Shown here: piece by piece, positions 15,859 through 37,872 of the stretch
Position numbering within the stretch: position 1 is the first letter of the stretch
Layout: the number at the start of each line of letters is the position of its first letter
NCBI GenBank assembly: GCA_026397515.1
Contig: JAPLUU010000007.1
Location: 1 to 50,020, forward strand
Direction: 5' to 3'
Origin: a candidate division SR1 bacterium
Lineage (GTDB): Bacteria > Patescibacteriota > Gracilibacteria > Absconditabacterales > Absconditicoccaceae
DNA: 50,020 bases
Program-made: the position numbers and the translations under genes
The notes under the pieces: generated by a model
Told to the model about the DNA's origin: nothing
The model's input: the letters and a program-made list of their open reading frames with translations, nothing else
Database searches by the model: none

Positions 15859-16215
15859 ATGAATACAATATTTAAAGCAATCCAAACATCATTTGATTTG
15901 TTGGATAAAAGAGTATCCAGAGAATCTTTAATGAGCACAATAGAATATATGCTCAAAATCGCAAACGAAATTACATGTAACGTAGAAAGTTGTCAGATAA
16001 AAAAATCTGGTAATGAAAATGTATCAATAGATATTAATTGTGAGAGGACAAAAGCACATCTTACAATCAATGTATGTGGTAACCAAGTTTCTTATATAGG
16101 AACAGGCCCTGACAAAAATGATAACATAAAAACAGTTAATACCCATTATTATTCCATCAACCAAGAAGTAATTGAATGGATAAGAAGGAACAAAATTAAA
16201 ACAAAAAAAATATGA
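15859..16215 (+). CDS. Hypothetical protein, probably foreign; stop codon depends on the code
   Basis: 118 residues if UGA at 16213-16215 is a stop; 155 residues (to UAA at 16324-16326) if UGA is glycine. Under the standard code the two small genes overlap as ATGA, the classic coupled stop/start. With code 25 the extra tail runs out of frame through the next gene and is low-complexity. This favours an origin in a standard-code genome. No family recognised; four cysteines (including the CNVESCQ pair) and no membrane segment. The frame has no other UGA. Confidence 0.6.
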   Translation: MNTIFKAIQTSFDLLDKRVSRESLMSTIEYMLKIANEITCNVESCQIKKSGNENVSIDINCERTKAHLTINVCGNQVSYIGTGPDKNDNIKTVNTHYYSINQEVIEWIRRNKIKTKKI

Positions 16216-16697
16216 AAAAAACAAGTTTTAAAAGTCCAAATGCAAAATATTGGACACCAGAAGACATCCAAGCACTCAAAGATGCAGTGATGTATACTGA
16301 TTTATTCGTTATTGCATTACGAATAATAGACAGGATGCCACAAAAAAACCTCACACAGATTTGTGGTCCTATAACTACAGGAGGAAAAGGATCAAAAGAA
16401 GCAAACATTAAAGAGTTTAATAAAGCAATTCGCTTTTTTATCTCCAAAGGAGAAAACATCTTTGACCAGATGCCTTTCCAAGATGCCATGGAAAGATTGA
16501 GTAAAGATGTAGAAGGATATGACGAACGGATTCTTGAGCATTTTTACTTACCACTCTTCAGATCAGGAAAAATAAAAAAATTCAAATTTTTACCTGATTG
16601 GGAAAGCTCAAAAGGAGCAAGTTGGGAAAACGAACAACTTACTACATTGAACTACAATATAACATATTTACTACCAAATTGGCATAAAACAGCGTAA
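16212..16697 (+). CDS. Hypothetical protein, UGA-free
   Basis: 161 residues, overlapping the previous gene by ATGA. All eight or so glycines are GGN and none is UGA, unlike neighbours such as purA where UGA is very frequent. The N-terminal NAKYWTPEDIQALKDAV and later CGPITTGGKGSKEANIKEFN are distinctive, but I assign no family. With the preceding gene it shares a duplicated upstream leader. Likely a small acquired pair. Confidence 0.65.
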   Translation: MKKTSFKSPNAKYWTPEDIQALKDAVMYTDLFVIALRIIDRMPQKNLTQICGPITTGGKGSKEANIKEFNKAIRFFISKGENIFDQMPFQDAMERLSKDVEGYDERILEHFYLPLFRSGKIKKFKFLPDWESSKGASWENEQLTTLNYNITYLLPNWHKTA

Positions 16698-18036: not shown

Positions 18037-18193
18037 TAATTGAGATACAATAAAAACCAGAATCTTTTTGAAGGTTTTTATGACATCGAAATTATATCAA
18101 CAATGATGTAATTGAGATACAATAAAAACCAGAATAATTTTGAGGGTTTTTATGACATCGAAATTATATCAACAATGATGTAATTGAGATATA
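18037..18193. repeat. Two tandem 72-base palindromic elements (family A, copies A1 and A2) plus a fragment
   Basis: Copies at 18037-18108 and 18109-18180, nearly identical, followed by a third start at 18181-18193. Each is an imperfect palindrome: TAATTGAGATACAATAAAAACC, a short variable loop, then GGTTTTTATGACATCGAAATTATAT-like sequence (written here in two parts with their junction in the loop). Located between the divergent starts of tsaD and the S1-domain gene. Confidence 0.85.
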
Positions 18194-22057: not shown

Positions 22058-22618
22058 TTATAATTTCATTTTTCTCGACATTTTTTCAAACGAAGTCTGA
22101 TGAAAATCACCAAGCATAGGCAGATATTGATCAAGTTCAGAAAGAAAAAGTCTAATGTGTTCGGCTGAATCATCAAACGTATAAATCATGTGTCATTTGG
22201 ACGTAAGAAAAACCACATTTTTTATCTTTTGTGTCTTAGGATAAATTTCTACAACATATCATACAAAAGTATTTCGTGGAAAATTTTTGGCTCATAAGAT
22301 AAGCTGGTTTTTATCTAGAGTAATTTTAATTACCTGATTATTTATGGTAGAATAATAAAAATATCATCACAGTAAAAAGAAAAGTAATACTGCTCCGACA
22401 ATATTATTATTGAGCAATGAAAGTACAAAGACACTTGCGAAAACAGCCGCAAATATCAAATACCAGAGTTTATTTCTCTGAAATTTTTCTCCGTTATAGA
22501 CGAGTACACTCATCAAATAGAATAATACAGTAAAAGAATATAAATTTTTATAGTCAATATACGCGAATTTGCAAGACTTTAGGAACTTTTGGACAGAATT
22601 GTAGTCAAATCGTCCCAA
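22058..22618 (-). CDS. Small membrane protein, unknown function
   Basis: About 186 residues if the TTG at 22618 is the start, which overlaps the end of rsmA by 40 bases; a shorter version could start at the ATG of MSVLVYNG. Two or three hydrophobic segments (YSFTVLFYLMSVLVY, LWYLIFAAVFASVFVLSLL, VGAVLLFFLLGGYFYY) are followed by a soluble domain of about 100 residues containing KNFPRNTFVGYVVEIYP, reminiscent of PH-like membrane-associated domains, though that is uncertain. UGA at glycine positions carries the frame through. Probably co-transcribed with rsmA. Confidence 0.6.
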
Positions 22619-23349
22619 GTCAATTCTTCCAGTCTTTTGGAAGATAACGAAGTCGGAATTTCAAAAGATATATCTGATTTTTTTTTGATCATCTTCTGGA
22701 TTGCTCCCAAAGTTTTTCTACTAAACGGCGCAAATAATTCCAAAAACTCGACAACTTTTTCAAAAGGGATTTTGGGTTGTTCTGGTTTAATAGTCAATTG
22801 AATAAGACAACTCTTCACTTTTGGTACAGGTTTGAAACATTTTGCAGGTACTCATTTTAAATAGGTAACGTCACAAGAATAATTAAGTAATCGTCGTAAA
22901 TATGATTTTTTCTTAGCATCACTTTTGAGCTTGAGACCTACCTCATCTTGCACCATAAAGATTCATCAAGCATAGTGTTGAGCGCTAAAAAATTTTCTCA
23001 AAATCGGTGAAGTGATATAGTAGGGAAGATTTCCAACGATTAAAGTTTTTTGAGGACTCAGATGTTTTTCTTGTAACACTGCTTCGACATCCAGTTCTAG
23101 AATATCAGACAGAATAAATTGTCAATTCGTAATCTGTAATTGTCAATTATCATAGAATGTCGGATCCATATCTACCACGAAAAAATGATCAGAAATAGTT
23201 TGGATAAGTTTAGTGATGGAGCCCTTACCAGGTCATATTTCGATTAATGCTTCACATCATGTTGTAGTATACAACGCCAAAATCTTGTCAGCGATATAGC
23301 TTCTGATCTTTGCATCGATAAGAAAGTTCTGTCCAAGATATGTTCACAT
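22579..23349 (-). CDS. rsmA: 16S rRNA dimethyladenosine transferase
   Basis: 256 residues. Dimethylates two adjacent adenosines near the 3' end of 16S rRNA during small-subunit assembly. Signatures: GQNFLID at the start, EIGPGKGSIT (SAM-binding motif I with two UGA glycines), VVDMDP, IVGNLPYYITSPI (the NLPY motif) and the C-terminal LFAPFSRKTLGAIQKM. It begins ATG-UGA (Met-Gly). The frame continues cleanly through five or six UGA codons. A palindromic repeat touches its start codon on the upstream side. Confidence 0.94.
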
Positions 23350-23410
23350 AATTGAGACGCAATAAAAGCTCGAAACTCTTGTAAGAGTTTTTATGATGTC
23401 GAAATTATAT
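23349..23410. repeat. Palindromic intergenic element (family A, copy A3)
   Basis: Same flanks as the copies near 18.1 kb (TAATTGAGACGCAATAAAA at one end, TTTTATGATGTCGAAATTATAT split across the other) but a different central hairpin, AAACTCTTGTAAGAGTTT. It starts at the rsmA start codon. A further inverted repeat, ATATATTCTC / GAGAATATAT, follows to about 23452. Confidence 0.75.
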
Positions 23411-23525
23411 ATTCTCCTTCAAAAGTATTCTTTATCTATTAGAGAATATATAATCACATACTAAATAAAACAGAAAGAATATAAAGAAATAATAATCATA
23501 TACAAATAACTACCAAAGACAAATA

Positions 23526-23612: not shown

Positions 23613-24683
23613 ATGAAACCAGAAATAACATTAAAACAATTAACTGAAGCTGGATTTTCTTCCAAAGTACTCGACGTGCTCAACGGCGGTCCAATACAAG
23701 GAGACCTGACTCCAGGTGAATTATTCTGTCTGAGTATATTAGCTCCTGAACGAGTAGACCAATTAATCAAACAAGAGCATATGCCCTTTGCAGGATTGAT
23801 TGAATTATACCACAATGAAGATAATTCAGAAATTACAGAGCAAACAATTGCAAGCTTACTAAGAAAAAAGGCTATAGGATTTGATGAAAAGTCGAAAATC
23901 CTTGATATGGAAAACGACGTAGACCAGGATCTTTTTAATGAGACACTGCCACTTATCTCTAATCTGGATCAATGCTCAATGATATTTACTATCATTGACA
24001 TGAGCGAATTACTGGAACCAGAGAAAGAGATAAATTTTCGTACACTCATTGAGATGATAAAAAAATTCAATCCAGACATTGATTACTGGATAGAAATGTA
24101 CGAGGATTCAAACTCCTACAAAAGAAGGATTGTTTGTATAAAAGAAATGAAAACTTTAGCATCACAAAATCCAACTTTTAAACATTGGGCCGCAGTATAC
24201 TATTACAGTTTGGCTGGATCCGAATGGGAAAAAGATGCTATAGAAAACATGCATGCGTTTACTCCTGATTTTGATGAAATAGCTGATGTGTATATTGCTC
24301 TCGATGACGAATCTAATCAAAAGAAAAACGAGATCACCAAAAGGCTGAAAGCTGTAGCAAAATTTGATGATTGGTATAATCGTTTTGAACCATCAGAGTA
24401 TGACGGATTATCCTCAAGCCGCATAAACGAACTTTGCTTTGCTATGATGATGGAACTAAATGGAGAATTTTCAAAGTATTTTGATGTCTATCTTGCACTA
24501 AAGGAGATAGCATACATGAAAATAATCGCAGAAAAAATGCCACAACTAAAAGCCAAAATGTTATCCATGGACGTTATAGGAAGCATAGAAGAACACATGG
24601 AACTCTATAACGATGTAGATGGAGACTACCAGCTTGATGTCATGAAAAAGATGATGAACATCCTGGACAATACCAAGAATTAA
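23613..24683 (+). CDS. Hypothetical protein, UGA-free, 356 residues
   Basis: An uninterrupted 356-codon frame with about 13 glycines, all GGN, in a genome where UGA glycine is very common. The sequence is acidic and helical with repeated aromatic turns (DYWIEMYEDSN, KHWAAVYYYSLAG, DDWYNRFEP), suggesting an alpha-helical repeat protein; I recognise no family. It has its own promoter-like sequence and a strong terminator, so it is a self-contained unit. First of three consecutive UGA-free genes, possibly recently acquired. Confidence 0.75.
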   Translation: MKPEITLKQLTEAGFSSKVLDVLNGGPIQGDLTPGELFCLSILAPERVDQLIKQEHMPFAGLIELYHNEDNSEITEQTIASLLRKKAIGFDEKSKILDMENDVDQDLFNETLPLISNLDQCSMIFTIIDMSELLEPEKEINFRTLIEMIKKFNPDIDYWIEMYEDSNSYKRRIVCIKEMKTLASQNPTFKHWAAVYYYSLAGSEWEKDAIENMHAFTPDFDEIADVYIALDDESNQKKNEITKRLKAVAKFDDWYNRFEPSEYDGLSSSRINELCFAMMMELNGEFSKYFDVYLALKEIAYMKIIAEKMPQLKAKMLSMDVIGSIEEHMELYNDVDGDYQLDVMKKMMNILDNTKN

Positions 24684-24704
24684 GTTTAACCAAAACATTG
24701 ACTA

Positions 24705-24734
24705 CGGAACTGTTATACAGTTCCGTTTTTTTTT
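24705..24734 (+). terminator. Rho-independent terminator
   Basis: CGGAACTG (24705-24712) pairs with CAGTTCCG (24718-24725) around TTATA, followed by nine T. The strongest terminator in the window. Confidence 0.9.
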
Positions 24735-24825
24735 TATATATTGATTTCATATAACGTATCTATACACTAAATAAAAAAGGGCCCAAAGAAAACATAGTAC
24801 AAACTCATAAAAAATGGAGGTATAT

Positions 24826-25446
24826 ATGAACACACAGAAAAATATCGTAAAGATTGTAATAACCGGTGGACCATGTGCGGGGAAATCAACCGTACTCACA
24901 AGTATAAACCAAGCACTGAAACATACAGGATGGAAAACATTCATTGCCCAAGAGATGGCAACAAGACTCTTCCAATCAGGTGTGGAAATTTCAGAAAAAG
25001 GACTATCATTATATCAATTTCAACAACAGTTACTCCTTCGTCAAATCAACGAAGAAGATTTTATCAAAGCATTAGCAGAAGACCACAAGTACGATAATGT
25101 TGTACTCTTATGTGATCGAGGAATAATGGATGGACAAGCATATATGTCAGAAGAAGATTTTGGTAAAATTTTACAATATAATGGATATACAAGAAAACAA
25201 GTAACAAACGAACGATACGATCTTGTTATCCATTTGACTACTGCAGCGTATGGAGCTGAAAAATTCTATACATTAGCAAACAACGAAGTACGCACAGAAA
25301 ACATCGCTGAAGCGAGAATATTGGACGATAGGATCAAAACCGTATGGAAAGAACACCCAAATGTACGGATAATCGACAACAGTACGTGTTTTCAAGGAAA
25401 AATCGATCGTACAATTCAAGAGATACATTCATATCTACACATGTAA
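24826..25446 (+). CDS. AAA_28-type P-loop ATPase/kinase-like protein
   Basis: 206 residues from the ATG at 24826, which has GGAGG five bases upstream (24816-24820); the earlier ATG at 24814 overlaps that site. Walker A is GGPCAGKS (14-21). VVLLCDRGIMDGQAYM, DLVIHLTTAAYGAEKFYT and ILDDRIKTVWKEHP follow the AAA_28 / NadR-like family. In that family the Arg of DRG is strongly conserved; here it is CGA (25117-25119), a codon that reads as Trp elsewhere in this window. With zero UGA codons, the gene looks written in the standard code and recently acquired. Function unknown. Confidence 0.85.
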   Translation: MNTQKNIVKIVITGGPCAGKSTVLTSINQALKHTGWKTFIAQEMATRLFQSGVEISEKGLSLYQFQQQLLLRQINEEDFIKALAEDHKYDNVVLLCDRGIMDGQAYMSEEDFGKILQYNGYTRKQVTNERYDLVIHLTTAAYGAEKFYTLANNEVRTENIAEARILDDRIKTVWKEHPNVRIIDNSTCFQGKIDRTIQEIHSYLHM

Positions 25447-25452
25447 AGATAT

Positions 25453-25481
25453 ACCAGCTTCTGTATTAAGGAGCTGGTTTT
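25453..25481 (+). terminator. Rho-independent terminator
   Basis: ACCAGCT (25453-25459) and AGCTGGT (25472-25478) with a T-rich tail, just after the AAA_28 gene. Confidence 0.7.
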
Positions 25482-25482
25482 A

Positions 25483-25610
25483 TTTGAGACGCGAAAAAAC
25501 TTGAAATATATGTTCAAAGAATAATATATTCTTAAAATAAGAATATACAATTTCGACATCATTAAAATTTTCTCTGCCTAGGCAGATCAGAATTTTAATT
25601 GTGTCTCAAA
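25483..25610. repeat. Palindromic element (family A, copy A5, reverse orientation) with terminal inverted repeats
   Basis: The right half, read on the minus strand, has the family flanks (GAGACACAATTAAAA ... TTTTAATGATGTCGAAATT) with a different hairpin centred on TCTGCCTAGGCAGA, a perfect 14-base palindrome. The whole block is bounded by TTTGAGACGC (25483-25492) and GTGTCTCAAA (25601-25610), imperfect inverted ends like a miniature mobile element. Confidence 0.6.
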
Positions 25611-25612
25611 TG

Positions 25613-25645
25613 AAAAAATGCCTGGAAAAATATTCCAAGCAAGTT
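25613..25645 (-). terminator. Rho-independent terminator, minus strand
   Basis: On the minus strand TGCTTGGA pairs with TCCAGGCA (one mismatch) and is followed by a T-run, about 20 bases after the stop of the gene at 25663-26085. Confidence 0.6.
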
Positions 25646-25662
25646 ACTAAACAAATTAGTAA

Positions 25663-26085
25663 TTAGATATTAACATTGTGTGGTTGATGTTCTGCCACGA
25701 AAAGAGTTACCCGATATGCAATATCTTCAAGTTCTCTGGATGAAAAATGGTGAATACTGCAGAGTTCTTTGATATGATTTTTTTTATCAATGAACTCAGG
25801 ATTACTGATGAGAAGTTTTCCCCAAGAAGCTAAATGTTCAACAGGAACTTTAACTTTTTTTTCATCTACCGAATGTTGTATCAACAACAGCAAATGTTTA
25901 CCCGCATGACTTAACCCCTCACTACTAATTTGTGGCAATCTTGTAGGCCGCGCGGAAGAAATGTGAGTTGTACCAACAATCACAACGGGGTTTTTTTTGC
26001 TAACTACCTTACCACGAATTTTATTAATAATTCTTCTAGTACGACTTGGGTTTTCGTCTTTTTTTGAATTTTTTTCTTTCGACAT
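25663..26085 (-). CDS. Hypothetical basic protein, UGA-free
   Basis: 140 residues. A Lys/Arg-rich N-terminus (KNSKKDENPSRTRRIINKIR) is followed by a mostly helical domain with several His residues (SIHHFSSRELEDIAYR, EHQPHNVNI). No signal peptide or membrane span; no family recognised. The frame has no UGA and its glycines are GGN; a CGG occurs in SARPTR. With the two preceding genes it forms a UGA-free block. Confidence 0.6.
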   Translation of the reverse strand: MSKEKNSKKDENPSRTRRIINKIRGKVVSKKNPVVIVGTTHISSARPTRLPQISSEGLSHAGKHLLLLIQHSVDEKKVKVPVEHLASWGKLLISNPEFIDKKNHIKELCSIHHFSSRELEDIAYRVTLFVAEHQPHNVNI

Positions 26086-26225: not shown

Positions 26226-26813
26226 TTATTTTTTCTTTTTTTCTAACGGGTCAGCACCATATTGATTATGTCATATTGTTCCTTTAGCAAACAAAAGAGG
26301 TCGCAACAATACTATAGACCAAATAGAAAATACAATCATAGCGATAGAAATACTGATGTATAACGGAGTAAATACTTGAGAAACCGCTTTTTGTTGTAAA
26401 GCAAGAATATCTTGAGAAATTTTTGCTTGTTCTCATGTTGTGGTAGCAGTCTGAAGTTGTTGAACAAGGTGTTGTGCTTCAGTTTGCATAGAAGGCAAGG
26501 TAATCATAGTAACAATACTAGAAATAAGAGAAAGAATATAACTGATACCAAAGACTATCCATATCCATTTTAGTTTAGACTTTCCATCGTCATTACGATC
26601 ATGTTGTCTTTTATAGATAAGCGCAGGATATATAAAAAACAATGCTGCAAGTCATAACAATGTAGAAACAATTACATACACTAGAGAAGGAAATACTAGT
26701 CCAAAAAAATAGTTAACAATAGACAATGCAATACCAAGAAGAAATAAATACCAGAAGAATTTAGCTCTTGATAATCTTCATTCACGAGAAAGATAGATTT
26801 TTTTGAGGTTCAT
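26226..26813 (-). CDS. DUF805-like membrane protein
   Basis: 195 residues with about four transmembrane helices (FFWYLFLLGIALSIVNYFFG; VYVIVSTLLGLAALFFIYP; WIVFGISYILSLISSIVTMI; IAMIVFSIWSIVLLRPLLF). The start REGRLSRAKFFWY matches the DUF805 pattern (GRxSRxxFW). Between helices 3 and 4 is a Gln-rich soluble loop of about 45 residues, longer than usual. Function of the family is unknown. Three UGA glycines. Confidence 0.8.
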
Positions 26814-26928
26814 ATACCAAAAAGAAAAAATAAAAAAAAGTATCCTAGTGATAAAGTTTCAAAGAAAAAAAACAAGAAAAAGAACTGCCCGTAGACAGTC
26901 CTCTTTCGTAGATATAATTCTGAATATA

Positions 26929-29568
26929 TTATGAATTTTTCAAAGCTGCATGAGCTGCTGCTAATCTTGCGATAGGTACTCTAAATGGTGAACAACTTAC
27001 ATAATTCAACCCAGCTTTATGACAGAAATAAATTGATTCTGGGTCTCCACCATGTTCTCCACAGATTCCAAGCTTGATGTCAGGTCTTGTTTTTCTTCCT
27101 TTTTCGATAGCCATTTGAACAAGTTGACCAACTCCTTCAGTATCTAGTGTTTGGAATGGATCCTTTTCAAATATATTTTTATTTACATATTCCTTGATAA
27201 ATGAACCAGCATCATCTCTAGAGAATCATAATGTCATCTGCGTAAGATCATTAGTTCCAAATGAGAAGAATTCAGCTGTTTCAGCTACTTTGTCTGCAGT
27301 TACTGCACCTCTTGGTACTTCAATCATGGTACCGAGTTTATAATCAACCTTCACTCCATATTTGTCCATGGTTGCTGAAGCAACCCTTCTTACAATTTCA
27401 GCATTGAAATCAAATTCAGCTTTGAATCCTACCAATGGAATCATGATTTCTGGTTTTACTTCTACGCCTGCCTTTTGAAGTTCACATGCTGCAGAGATAA
27501 CTGCTTCTGTTTGCATTTCTGCGATTTCAGGATAGGTAACAACCAATCTACATCCTCTATGTCCAAGCATTGGATTGAATTCATGAAGTCCTTCAATTCT
27601 CTTTCTCAATACTTCAAGATCAACACCCATATCTCTTGCAAGTTCGACGATATCTTTCTCTTCTTGTGGCAAGAATTCATGTAATGGAGGATCTAAGAAT
27701 CTAATAGTTACCGGTAATCAAGCCATAGCTTTGAGGATTCAGACGAAATCTTCTTTTTGGAAAGGAAGTAATTTAGCCAATGCTTTTTTTCTTCCATTCA
27801 CATCATCAGCAAGAATCATTTCTCTTACTGCTTTGATTCTATCTTCAGCGAAGAACATGTGTTCTGTTCTACACAAACCAATTCCTTGCGCACCAAATTT
27901 TCTTGCTACATCAGCATCATGGGGAGTATCAGCATTTGTCCTTACAAGCAATGTTCTGTAATTATCAGCCCAAGTCATAAGCGTTCCGAAGTCACCACTC
28001 AATTCTGGATCCATTACTCCCAATCCACCAGCAAATACTTCTCCTGTTGATCAATCCAAAGTAATCATATCTCATTCATTATATACTTTTCCTTTTACTG
28101 TAAGTGTTTTATCCTTTTCAGATACAACAATTTCTCCAGCTCCAGCTACACAACTCTTTCCCATTCCTCTAGCAACTACGGCAGCATGAGATGTCATTCC
28201 TCCTCTAGCTGTTAAGATTCCTTGAGATGCTATCATTCCGATAATATCCTCTGGAGAAGTTTCTGTCCTTACTAATACAACTTTTTTACCATCTTCAGCT
28301 CGATCATGAGCAGCTTGTGCAGTAAATACAATTTGTCCAACTGCAGCTCCTGGTGAAGCTGGAAGTCATTTAGTAAGTAAGTCAGCTGTTGTTTTAGCCT
28401 TTGGATCTATTTGTTTGTGAAGTAAACTATCAAGTTGTTCTGGTTTTACTCTCAACACTGCTTCTTTTTCATTGATAAGTCATTCTTTCACCATGTCTAC
28501 TGCCATTTTGATAGCTGCAGCAGCTGTTCTTTTTCCATTTCTTGTCTGAAGAATGAAAAGTTTTCCTTCTTGGATAGTAAATTCCATATCTTGCATATCT
28601 CTATAATGTTTTTCTAGTCCTTGATAAATTTCTACAAGTTCTTTGTAACAGTCTGGCATTACTTTATCAAGTTCTGAGATTTCCAATGGTGTTCTGATAC
28701 CAGCAACAACATCTTCTCCTTGTGCATTCATCAAAAATTCTCCATAGAATTTGTGTTCTCCGGTTGATGGATTTCTTGTGAAACATACTCCAGTTCCTGA
28801 AGTGTCTCCCATATTTCCAAATACCATTGCTTGGATATTTACTGCTGTTCCGAGCAATCCTTTGATATCATTTATTTTTCTGTAGATAATAGCTCTATCA
28901 TTATTCCATGAACCAAATACTGCGTCGATAGACATTTGTAATTGTTCTCTTGGATTACTTGGAAAATCTTTTCCTGTAGCTTTCTTGATTGCTTCTTTGT
29001 ACAAAACAACAACCTTTTGAAGATCAACAACATCAAGTTCTGTATCAAGTTTTACTCCTTTAGCATCTTTTACTGATTGTAATGCATGCTCGAAATCATG
29101 GTGAGGAACTTCCAATACTACATCACCAAACATTTGCAAAAATCTTCTGTAACTATCTCGTACAAATCTTGGATTACCAGTTTTTTCGATTAATCCTTGG
29201 ACTGATTCATCATTAAGTCCTAGATTCAAAATAGTGTCCATCATTCCAGGCATAGAATCAGCAGCTCCAGATCTTACAGACACCAACAATGGATCTTTAG
29301 GATCTCAAAGATTTTTACCCATAACATGTTCAAGTTTTTGAAGTTCTTTTTCAATCTGATCCAATACTATTTGTGGATACGTTTTGTTGCTTTTGTAATA
29401 CAAATCACATGTTTCTGTTGTGATAGTAAATCCACTTGGGATAGGCAATCCCATTTCCACCATTTCAGATAAGTTTTTTCCTTTACCTCCTAAGATTTCT
29501 TTACCGAGGCCTTTTGTTTCACCAAAAAAGTACACGTACTTTTTTTCACTACTTCCAAATAATCACAT
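26929..29568 (-). CDS. ppdK: Pyruvate, phosphate dikinase
   Basis: 879 residues, full length. Interconverts PEP, AMP and PPi with pyruvate, ATP and Pi; in cells with limited carbon metabolism it can make ATP from PEP and PPi. Starts ATG-UGA ([10 protein letters not shown]). N-terminal ATP-grasp domain: [47 protein letters not shown]. Swivelling domain: [19 protein letters not shown] with the phosphorylated His. C-terminal TIM barrel: [30 protein letters not shown] and the catalytic Cys in [11 protein letters not shown] codons at 29158 (FVxDSYRRF) and 28300 (AHDxAEDGKK) lie where the family has Trp. Unlike purA, only a handful of glycines are UGA, perhaps because it is highly expressed. Confidence 0.97.
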
Positions 29569-29595: not shown

Positions 29596-29653
29596 ATTCG
29601 AGACACAATAAAAACCCGAAGTATTGAGGGTTTTTGTGATGTCGAGATTATAT
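29596..29653. repeat. Palindromic intergenic element (family A, copy A4)
   Basis: ATTCGAGACACAATAAAAACCC, loop, GGGTTTTTGTGATGTCGAGATTATAT arranged as an imperfect palindrome (the two arms lie either side of 29625). It lies 28 bases upstream of the ppdK start, the same relation that copies A1-A3 have to tsaD and rsmA. Confidence 0.75.
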
Positions 29654-37458: not shown

Positions 37459-37872
37459 ATGAAAATCGTGAGTGCTTGTTTAGCAGGAATAAATTGTAAA
37501 CGAGATGGCAAATCAAAACCATGCCAAAAGATTATTGAATTAGTTAAACAGGGAAAAGCAATTCCTATTTGCCCAGAACAATTAGGTGGTTTGACCACAC
37601 CAAGAACTCCTGCAGAACAGAAAAACAACAAGGTTATTACAAAAGATGGTAAAGATGTGACCGCTCAATTTGAAAAAGGAGCAAAAGAAGCTTTGCAAAT
37701 AGCAAAATTATTCAACTGTAAAGAAGCAATTCTGAAATCTAAATCACCATCTTGTGGTTCTGGAAAGATTTATGATGGTACTTTTTCTGGAAAATTAATT
37801 GATGGAGATGGAGTCACTGTTAAACTTCTAAAGAAAAATAACATTAAGGTAGTTACCGAAGATGAAATATAA
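37459..37872 (+). CDS. DUF523 family protein (TudS-like thiouracil desulfurase family)
   Basis: 137 residues. SACLAGINCKxDGKSKPC, CPEQLGGLTTPR and KSKSPSCGSGKIYDG are the three conserved cysteine blocks of DUF523, a family that includes the 4Fe-4S enzyme TudS, which removes sulfur from 2-thiouracil. The x is CGA, where the family usually has an aromatic (YDG), consistent with Trp. No UGA is used despite about 14 glycines. A salvage role for thiolated pyrimidines from degraded tRNA is conceivable; this is inference. Confidence 0.88.
   Translation: MKIVSACLAGINCKRDGKSKPCQKIIELVKQGKAIPICPEQLGGLTTPRTPAEQKNNKVITKDGKDVTAQFEKGAKEALQIAKLFNCKEAILKSKSPSCGSGKIYDGTFSGKLIDGDGVTVKLLKKNNIKVVTEDEI

Follow-up and report, generated by a model that had tools for sequence, protein, structure and literature searches.

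Three consecutive genes upstream of rsmA in a recoded bacterial genome very probably represent foreign DNA written in the standard genetic code, which would have arrived with transcription signals of its own, by uptake or some other route, and settled in a permissive slot. The window, i.e., the whole 50,020-nucleotide stretch that we analysed, covers bases 1-50020 of an 89.7-kb contig in a 1.21-Mb assembly. The assemblies are metagenomic, the gene calls are mechanical, and the promoter and terminator rules are simple. At the level of sequence, the comparisons establish the code of the host, the standard-code writing of the AAA_28 gene of the block, the conserved slot, a class of such genes with terminators, and unrelated families that carry them.

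The native code, in which UGA would be read as glycine and CGA and CGG as tryptophan, holds on the evidence of tRNA genes and alignments. The genome encodes a tRNA with anticodon UCA and glycine-type ends, a single tRNA-UCG, and a single tRNA-CCG. The last two resemble tRNA-Trp(CCA), with a purine1:U72, G73, and no A20 (pairing and numbering were read off the sequences); the tRNA-Arg genes with anticodons GCG, UCU, and CCU have A20. We applied here the criteria of tryptophan identity that Shulgina and Eddy used for Absconditabacteria tRNAs (PMC8629427). Around rsmA, the vertically inherited genes of seven genomes of the genus have CGA opposite TGG 108 times and opposite unambiguous arginine codons 7 times, and CGG opposite TGG 44 times and opposite arginine once. 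The native thymidylate synthase has CGA/CGG at the bracketed positions of HI[W]DE[W]. Tryptophan at CGA and CGG together with glycine at UGA places the predicted code with the Absconditabacteria type (PMC8629427), with which it also shares the tRNA types GCG, UCG, and CCG and a low G+C content. In that study one code was inferred per genome, whereas here a minority of the genes use all three codons in their standard sense.

The first gene of the block (23613..24683, + strand), taken from the list of open reading frames (ORFs) and submitted to searches for families and relatives, encodes 356 residues and is followed by a terminator-like sequence (GGAACTG...CAGTTCC plus a run of T; 24703..24736, +). 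The second (24826..25446, +) encodes a P-loop kinase-like protein of the AAA_28 family, recognised by profile match and alignment, with 206 residues, or 210 from an alternative in-frame ATG at 24814. The third (25663..26085, − strand), from the same list and with a search for relatives, encodes 140 residues and has no family. They contain 12, 12, and 5 GGN glycine codons, respectively, and no TGA. The CGA/CGG codons of the block are at 23751, 25117, 25213, and 25366, plus two CGG within the 140-residue gene. When the variation in UGA use between genes is fitted to native genes, three consecutive UGA-free genes would arise by chance with P ~2e-4 (1e-3 with a one-component fit). A search of the window with Rfam gave no match.

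The block lies between two native genes: rsmA (RrnaAD, nine UGA; 22579..23457, −), which is the conserved edge of the slot, and a DUF805 gene (six UGA; 26226..26951, −) at the opposite edge, next to which comes PPDK (nine UGA; 26929-29568). Sister genomes conserve this slot from rsmA to the PPDK side, and 6 of the 7 genomes of the genus have UGA-free ORFs, mostly different ones, directly upstream of rsmA. The 11 UGA-free ORFs of this slot have 82 glycines (P ~1e-11, or 2e-9 with a wider fit, given the spread among native genes), and several of them are short, so individual ones may be native. Elsewhere in the window, a UGA-free ORF at 16212-16697 has a relative (42%) in the rsmA slot of genome G006, and a UGA-free gene of the 2-thiouracil desulfurase family with one CGA is found at 37459-37872.

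The AAA_28 gene is the only one of the block with a known family (PF13521; 84.2 bits for a cut-off of 27). Its standard-code translation contains the P-loop GGPCxGK[ST] and the DRG motif, with invariant columns G14-K20, D97, and R98. The predicted structure (pLDDT 95) has a thymidylate kinase/NadR-like fold (Z 17.2 to NadR and 16.8 to thymidylate kinase); a sequence search for a solved structure of an AAA_28 protein found none. We aligned 83 sequences to analyse the positions of the three CGA/CGG codons. The first, CGA at 25117..25119 (+), encodes the arginine of DRG (residue 98, in LCDRG), and this column is arginine in 83 of 83 sequences, nine of which, the window copy included, use CGA. The second, CGA at 25213..25215 (+), encodes residue 130 (in ERYD), where the commonest residues listed are R (33), S (17), and N (14), tryptophan being absent among them. 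The third, CGG at 25366..25368 (+), is residue 181, in a column with arginine in 74 of 83. Two marks of standard-code import are thus found, with no UGA at glycines and, in AAA_28, CGA/CGG at conserved arginine rather than tryptophan sites. Because CGA is natively tryptophan and the DRG arginine is arginine in all aligned sequences, the AAA_28 gene is, on this codon evidence, foreign and written in the standard code. An earlier note on this DNA had described three UGA-free genes at 23613-26085, one with CGA at a strongly conserved DRG arginine, and had proposed a foreign, standard-code origin on the premise that CGA means tryptophan in this host. The ORF lengths, the absence of TGA, and the codon are confirmed, the premise is borne out by tRNA identity, the alignments of vertical genes, and the native ThyA, all of them sequence evidence, and the proposed origin is supported.

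The DRX arginine of thymidylate kinases is in contact with the phosphate of the substrate, so a tryptophan at residue 98 would probably abolish activity. Made in the native cell, the AAA_28 protein would have D-W-G at this motif and would probably be inactive. The protein shares the P-loop, DRG, other invariant residues, and the thymidylate-kinase/NadR-like fold with AAA_28 proteins (PF13521) that have a C-terminal extension and are common in Clostridia and some CPR, but it stops after the kinase-like part. Its relatives are mostly 356-461 residues long, nearly all with the extension. The ~150 residues of extension of this two-domain subgroup are absent from the 206-residue copy, and a search for a remnant downstream of the gene gave no convincing match (best E 0.68).

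Among 192 related genomes, AAA_28 was found, besides the window, in G004 of the same genus (57% identity), G034 of the same family (40%), G178 of the same class (37%), and one remote genome. It is thus present in 2 of the 9 genomes of the genus, at different loci. The earlier note had named close homologues with UGA at glycines, or tryptophan at the DRG site, as observations against an import. Neither was found in near kin, where the sole relative within the genus, that of G004, is likewise UGA-free with CGA at DRG. The G178 gene has UGA at invariant glycines but, with 37% identity, is no close homologue. The phylogeny of the protein, proposed in the same note, groups the window copy with that of G004 (SH-aLRT 99), and no outside sequence lies close to the pair. 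We found no donor, the closest relative beyond the genus being ~46% identical. A phage origin was rejected, since 50,697 phage records gave no match and viral contigs gave full-length relatives at only 35-42%. At synonymous sites, the copies of the window and of G004 differ by a pS of 0.78, more than the 0.51-0.69 measured in vertical genes for this pair of genomes. This value and the different loci disfavour vertical descent of the gene between the window's genome (G000) and G004, and favour separate acquisition of the two copies. On these comparisons, a recent import of the AAA_28 gene is likely.

The 356-residue gene matches no Pfam/NCBIfam family and has no significant relative across 191 related genomes; one weak match was found in a sample of the phylum (E 5e-4, 68 residues). 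It has a single CGA and four UGG tryptophans, and we place it with the foreign kind by these tryptophans, the absence of UGA, and its position. The 140-residue gene has a distant relative in the rsmA slot of G002 (28% over 85 residues), with one CGG opposite arginine, and is probably of the same standard-code foreign kind. Neither gene has a match in viral contigs, and their foreign origin would rest mainly on the absence of UGA and on their setting. Since highly expressed native genes are also sparing of UGA (3 of 54 glycines in EF-G, 9 of 82 in PPDK), UGA absence alone says little for small genes. High expression is a possible cause of UGA absence in single small native genes and is excluded where CGA/CGG occupies a conserved arginine site. 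One native gene that lacks UGA is thioredoxin-like and has CGA at its WC site.

The block is not unique, because ~9% of the genes belong to a UGA-free class. We sampled 484 kb of genome with 321 coding-like ORFs of at least 5 glycines (the stretches cover ~40-45% of two genomes, and some of those of G000 were chosen for holding the palindrome described below). UGA-free ORFs numbered 40 against 5.4 expected, and a mixture including ~9% of true UGA-free genes fitted 24 log units better. We then compared the 32 UGA-free genes having at least 8 glycines with 234 native genes. Per 1000 codons, UGG is used 11.7 times by the class and 5.3 times by native genes; the former value matches the native sum of UGG, CGA, and CGG (11.9), indicating that the class writes tryptophan by the standard code. 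Intrinsic terminators are present for 25 of 32 UGA-free and 69 of 234 native genes (p = 1.7e-7), and promoter-like sites are modestly enriched (12 of 32 versus 39 of 234). A good Shine-Dalgarno sequence does not distinguish the class (1 of 32 versus 5 of 234); within the block, GGAGG precedes only the AAA_28 gene. Hence, the earlier claim that good Shine-Dalgarno sequences and strong terminators set the block apart is upheld for the terminators, as a feature of the whole class, and fails for the Shine-Dalgarno beyond AAA_28. UGA-free genes rarely have relatives within a 535-kb sample of G008 (3 of 32, versus 118 of 234 native genes; p = 6e-6). A purB-like gene (L195:18413-19716) is UGA-free, has CGA at its DGRY motif, is broken by stops, and is without a match in the remaining eight genomes of the genus. 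The picture given by the class is one of steady import with turnover.

A dispersed, imperfect palindrome of ~50 nt (TTTCGACATCATnAAAA ... TTTTnATTGTGTCTCAA) recurs near these genes. The repeat search placed one copy within the leader of rsmA, where it borders the first two genes on one side (23352..23404, −), and a second, inverted, 54 nt past the stop codon of the 140-residue gene (25551..25609, +). Further copies in the window are at 18040-18091, 18112-18163, and 29598-29647. Across the genome, the half-site matches 41 times and the reversed pattern 6 times. Of 19 full copies in the sample, 9 have a UGA-free gene within 600 bp (3.0 expected, p = 5e-4), a comparison based on within-contig shuffles, which are unaffected by the palindrome-based choice of some G000 stretches that biases palindrome density. 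Several copies are 52-60 nt behind the stop of a UGA-free gene. The palindromes beside UGA-free genes suggested integron cassettes, which we rejected because no integron integrase IntI scored over the TIGR02249 cut-off in nine genomes. A second tyrosine recombinase (G000:C23:19226-20023), besides a Xer-like one on contig C15, is under that cut-off.

In the scenario that we favour, standard-code genes would have landed between rsmA and the DUF805/PPDK side, in the intergenic slot, possibly after uptake of DNA from prey or neighbours; competence has been described in Vampirococcus, a relative. A standard-code gene that ends with UAA or UAG and lacks internal UGA would keep its glycines undamaged in this host. 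The sole clash would concern CGA/CGG, natively tryptophan. The sections of the Vampirococcus study on gene transfer (PMC8080830) report many transfers and propose uptake of host DNA. The genes acquired there resemble ours in their gain by transfer and in this proposed route, and differ in that their code was not the subject of those sections. The code-11-compatible phages of Gracilibacteria/Absconditabacteria (PMC10746230) also have UGA-free genes tied to code-25 hosts, whereas we describe single chromosomal genes with a CGA/CGG clash at conserved arginine sites.

Other standard-code genes seem to have been resident for longer. Three species have a second, UGA-free thyA between ackA and the native thyA (L191:1503-2492 and L226; L230; L231), the two copies standing side by side in the region from ackA to a long synthetase-like gene. 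The native copy has six UGA and has CGA/CGG at tryptophans; the foreign one has CGA/CGG at conserved, partly catalytic, arginines. Across the three species, the native copies are 85-90% identical and the foreign ones 50-70%, with conflicting relationships. The thymidylate synthase of G006 (L233:5569-6477) is of the native type (78% identical), with neither UGA nor CGA/CGG.

A PIN-PhoH gene adjoins obgE in G000, G004, and G007, and in G000 and G004 the flanks can be aligned up to the gene. In five species (L205:8654-10207, L247, L250, L246, L249), its 152 glycines include no UGA wherever the sequence is coherent; the G006 copy has one UGA, in a tail beyond a run of N. In its arginine columns, CGA/CGG exchange with CGU, CGC, AGA, and AGG. 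The G000 and G004 proteins are 85% identical (pS 0.50, dN/dS 0.10), a divergence like that of native genes. The partners of CGA/CGG between the two are other arginine codons in 5 of 8 cases and UGG in none, against 1 arginine and 43 tryptophans among 188 in native genes (p = 1.4e-7). If their ancestor lacked UGA, we estimate from a codon exchange table a chance of ~1% for the absence of UGA in both. An Acyltransf_2 gene beside pyrG (between fusA and pyrG) in G000 and G008 behaves in the same way. At least these two genes, PIN-PhoH and the acyltransferase, thus appear to have kept the standard code while the species diverged. As UGA-free genes with CGA/CGG as arginine were apparently in place before species split, "recent" is no general rule. 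The recent import of the earlier note suits AAA_28 and the decaying purB-like gene, and does not extend to the whole class, in which PIN-PhoH and the acyltransferase keep their place.

Two readings can account for these vertical cases. The genes may be refreshed from donors that use the standard code, or they may act in a cell where that code is in force. The first, a refinement of the favoured import scenario for long-lived genes, has a substantial chance of being right, if somewhat short of even. Resident copies would recombine repeatedly with incoming standard-code homologues, which would leave the flanks vertical and the coding sequence standard. The conflicting relationships of the foreign ThyA beside the native one argue for it, as do the uptake and many transfers reported for Vampirococcus (PMC8080830). 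It is weakened by the synonymous divergence of PhoH, which is at the level of native genes, and by the phage and plasmid collections, whose closest full-length PhoH and ThyA are less than ~50% identical, so that the recombining donor is not seen there.

The second reading, which we consider unlikely, holds that some standard-code genes are kept because their products act, or the genes spend time, in a standard-code host or prey cell. The stable position of PIN-PhoH, its lack of UGA in the coherent parts, its exchanges among arginine codons, and the similar acyltransferase are consistent with it, as are the self-contained units with terminators formed by the class and the conjugation-like T4SS genes widespread in Patescibacteria (PMC12102498). 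Yet, promoters are only modestly enriched, the class is mostly lineage-specific, its purB is broken, and recombination with standard-code donors would yield the same codon pattern. We also regard as rather unlikely a genome with two codes, where a set of genes, with CGA/CGG selected as arginine and UGA excluded, would be kept standard and read in, or in alternation with, a host or prey cell.

Ambiguous decoding, whereby CGA/CGG would give a mixture of tryptophan and arginine and both kinds of genes would partly work, seems quite improbable. The tRNA-UCG does retain C35, on which ArgRS mainly relies in the anticodon, but native CGA/CGG are almost only at tryptophan sites and the absence of UGA would go unexplained. 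An assembly chimera or contamination by a standard-code genome could be suspected in a metagenome assembly with a contamination estimate of 4%. This is very improbable, because UGA-free genes occur singly among native ones, in several independent assemblies and in shared slots at rsmA, thyA, obgE, and pyrG. The block could also consist of native genes in which UGA happens to be missing and tryptophan is tolerated. The short genes and the existence of other native genes without UGA would fit, but this has equally little chance and is disfavoured for AAA_28 by the CGA at an arginine conserved in 83 of 83 sequences and the location of all three of its CGA/CGG codons in arginine-rich columns.

Codon reassignment has been suggested, in a passage of the Vampirococcus study (PMC8080830), to shield recoded bacteria against foreign genes. 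In the genome analysed here, roughly one in ten of the tested genes looks standard-code. UGA and CGA/CGG codons provide a per-gene clock of the adaptation of an import, and the syntenic PhoH and acyltransferase genes appear to show standard-code evolution inside a recoded genome. Whether imports are translated, and as what, becomes a directly testable question, with the thyA pairs available in three species.
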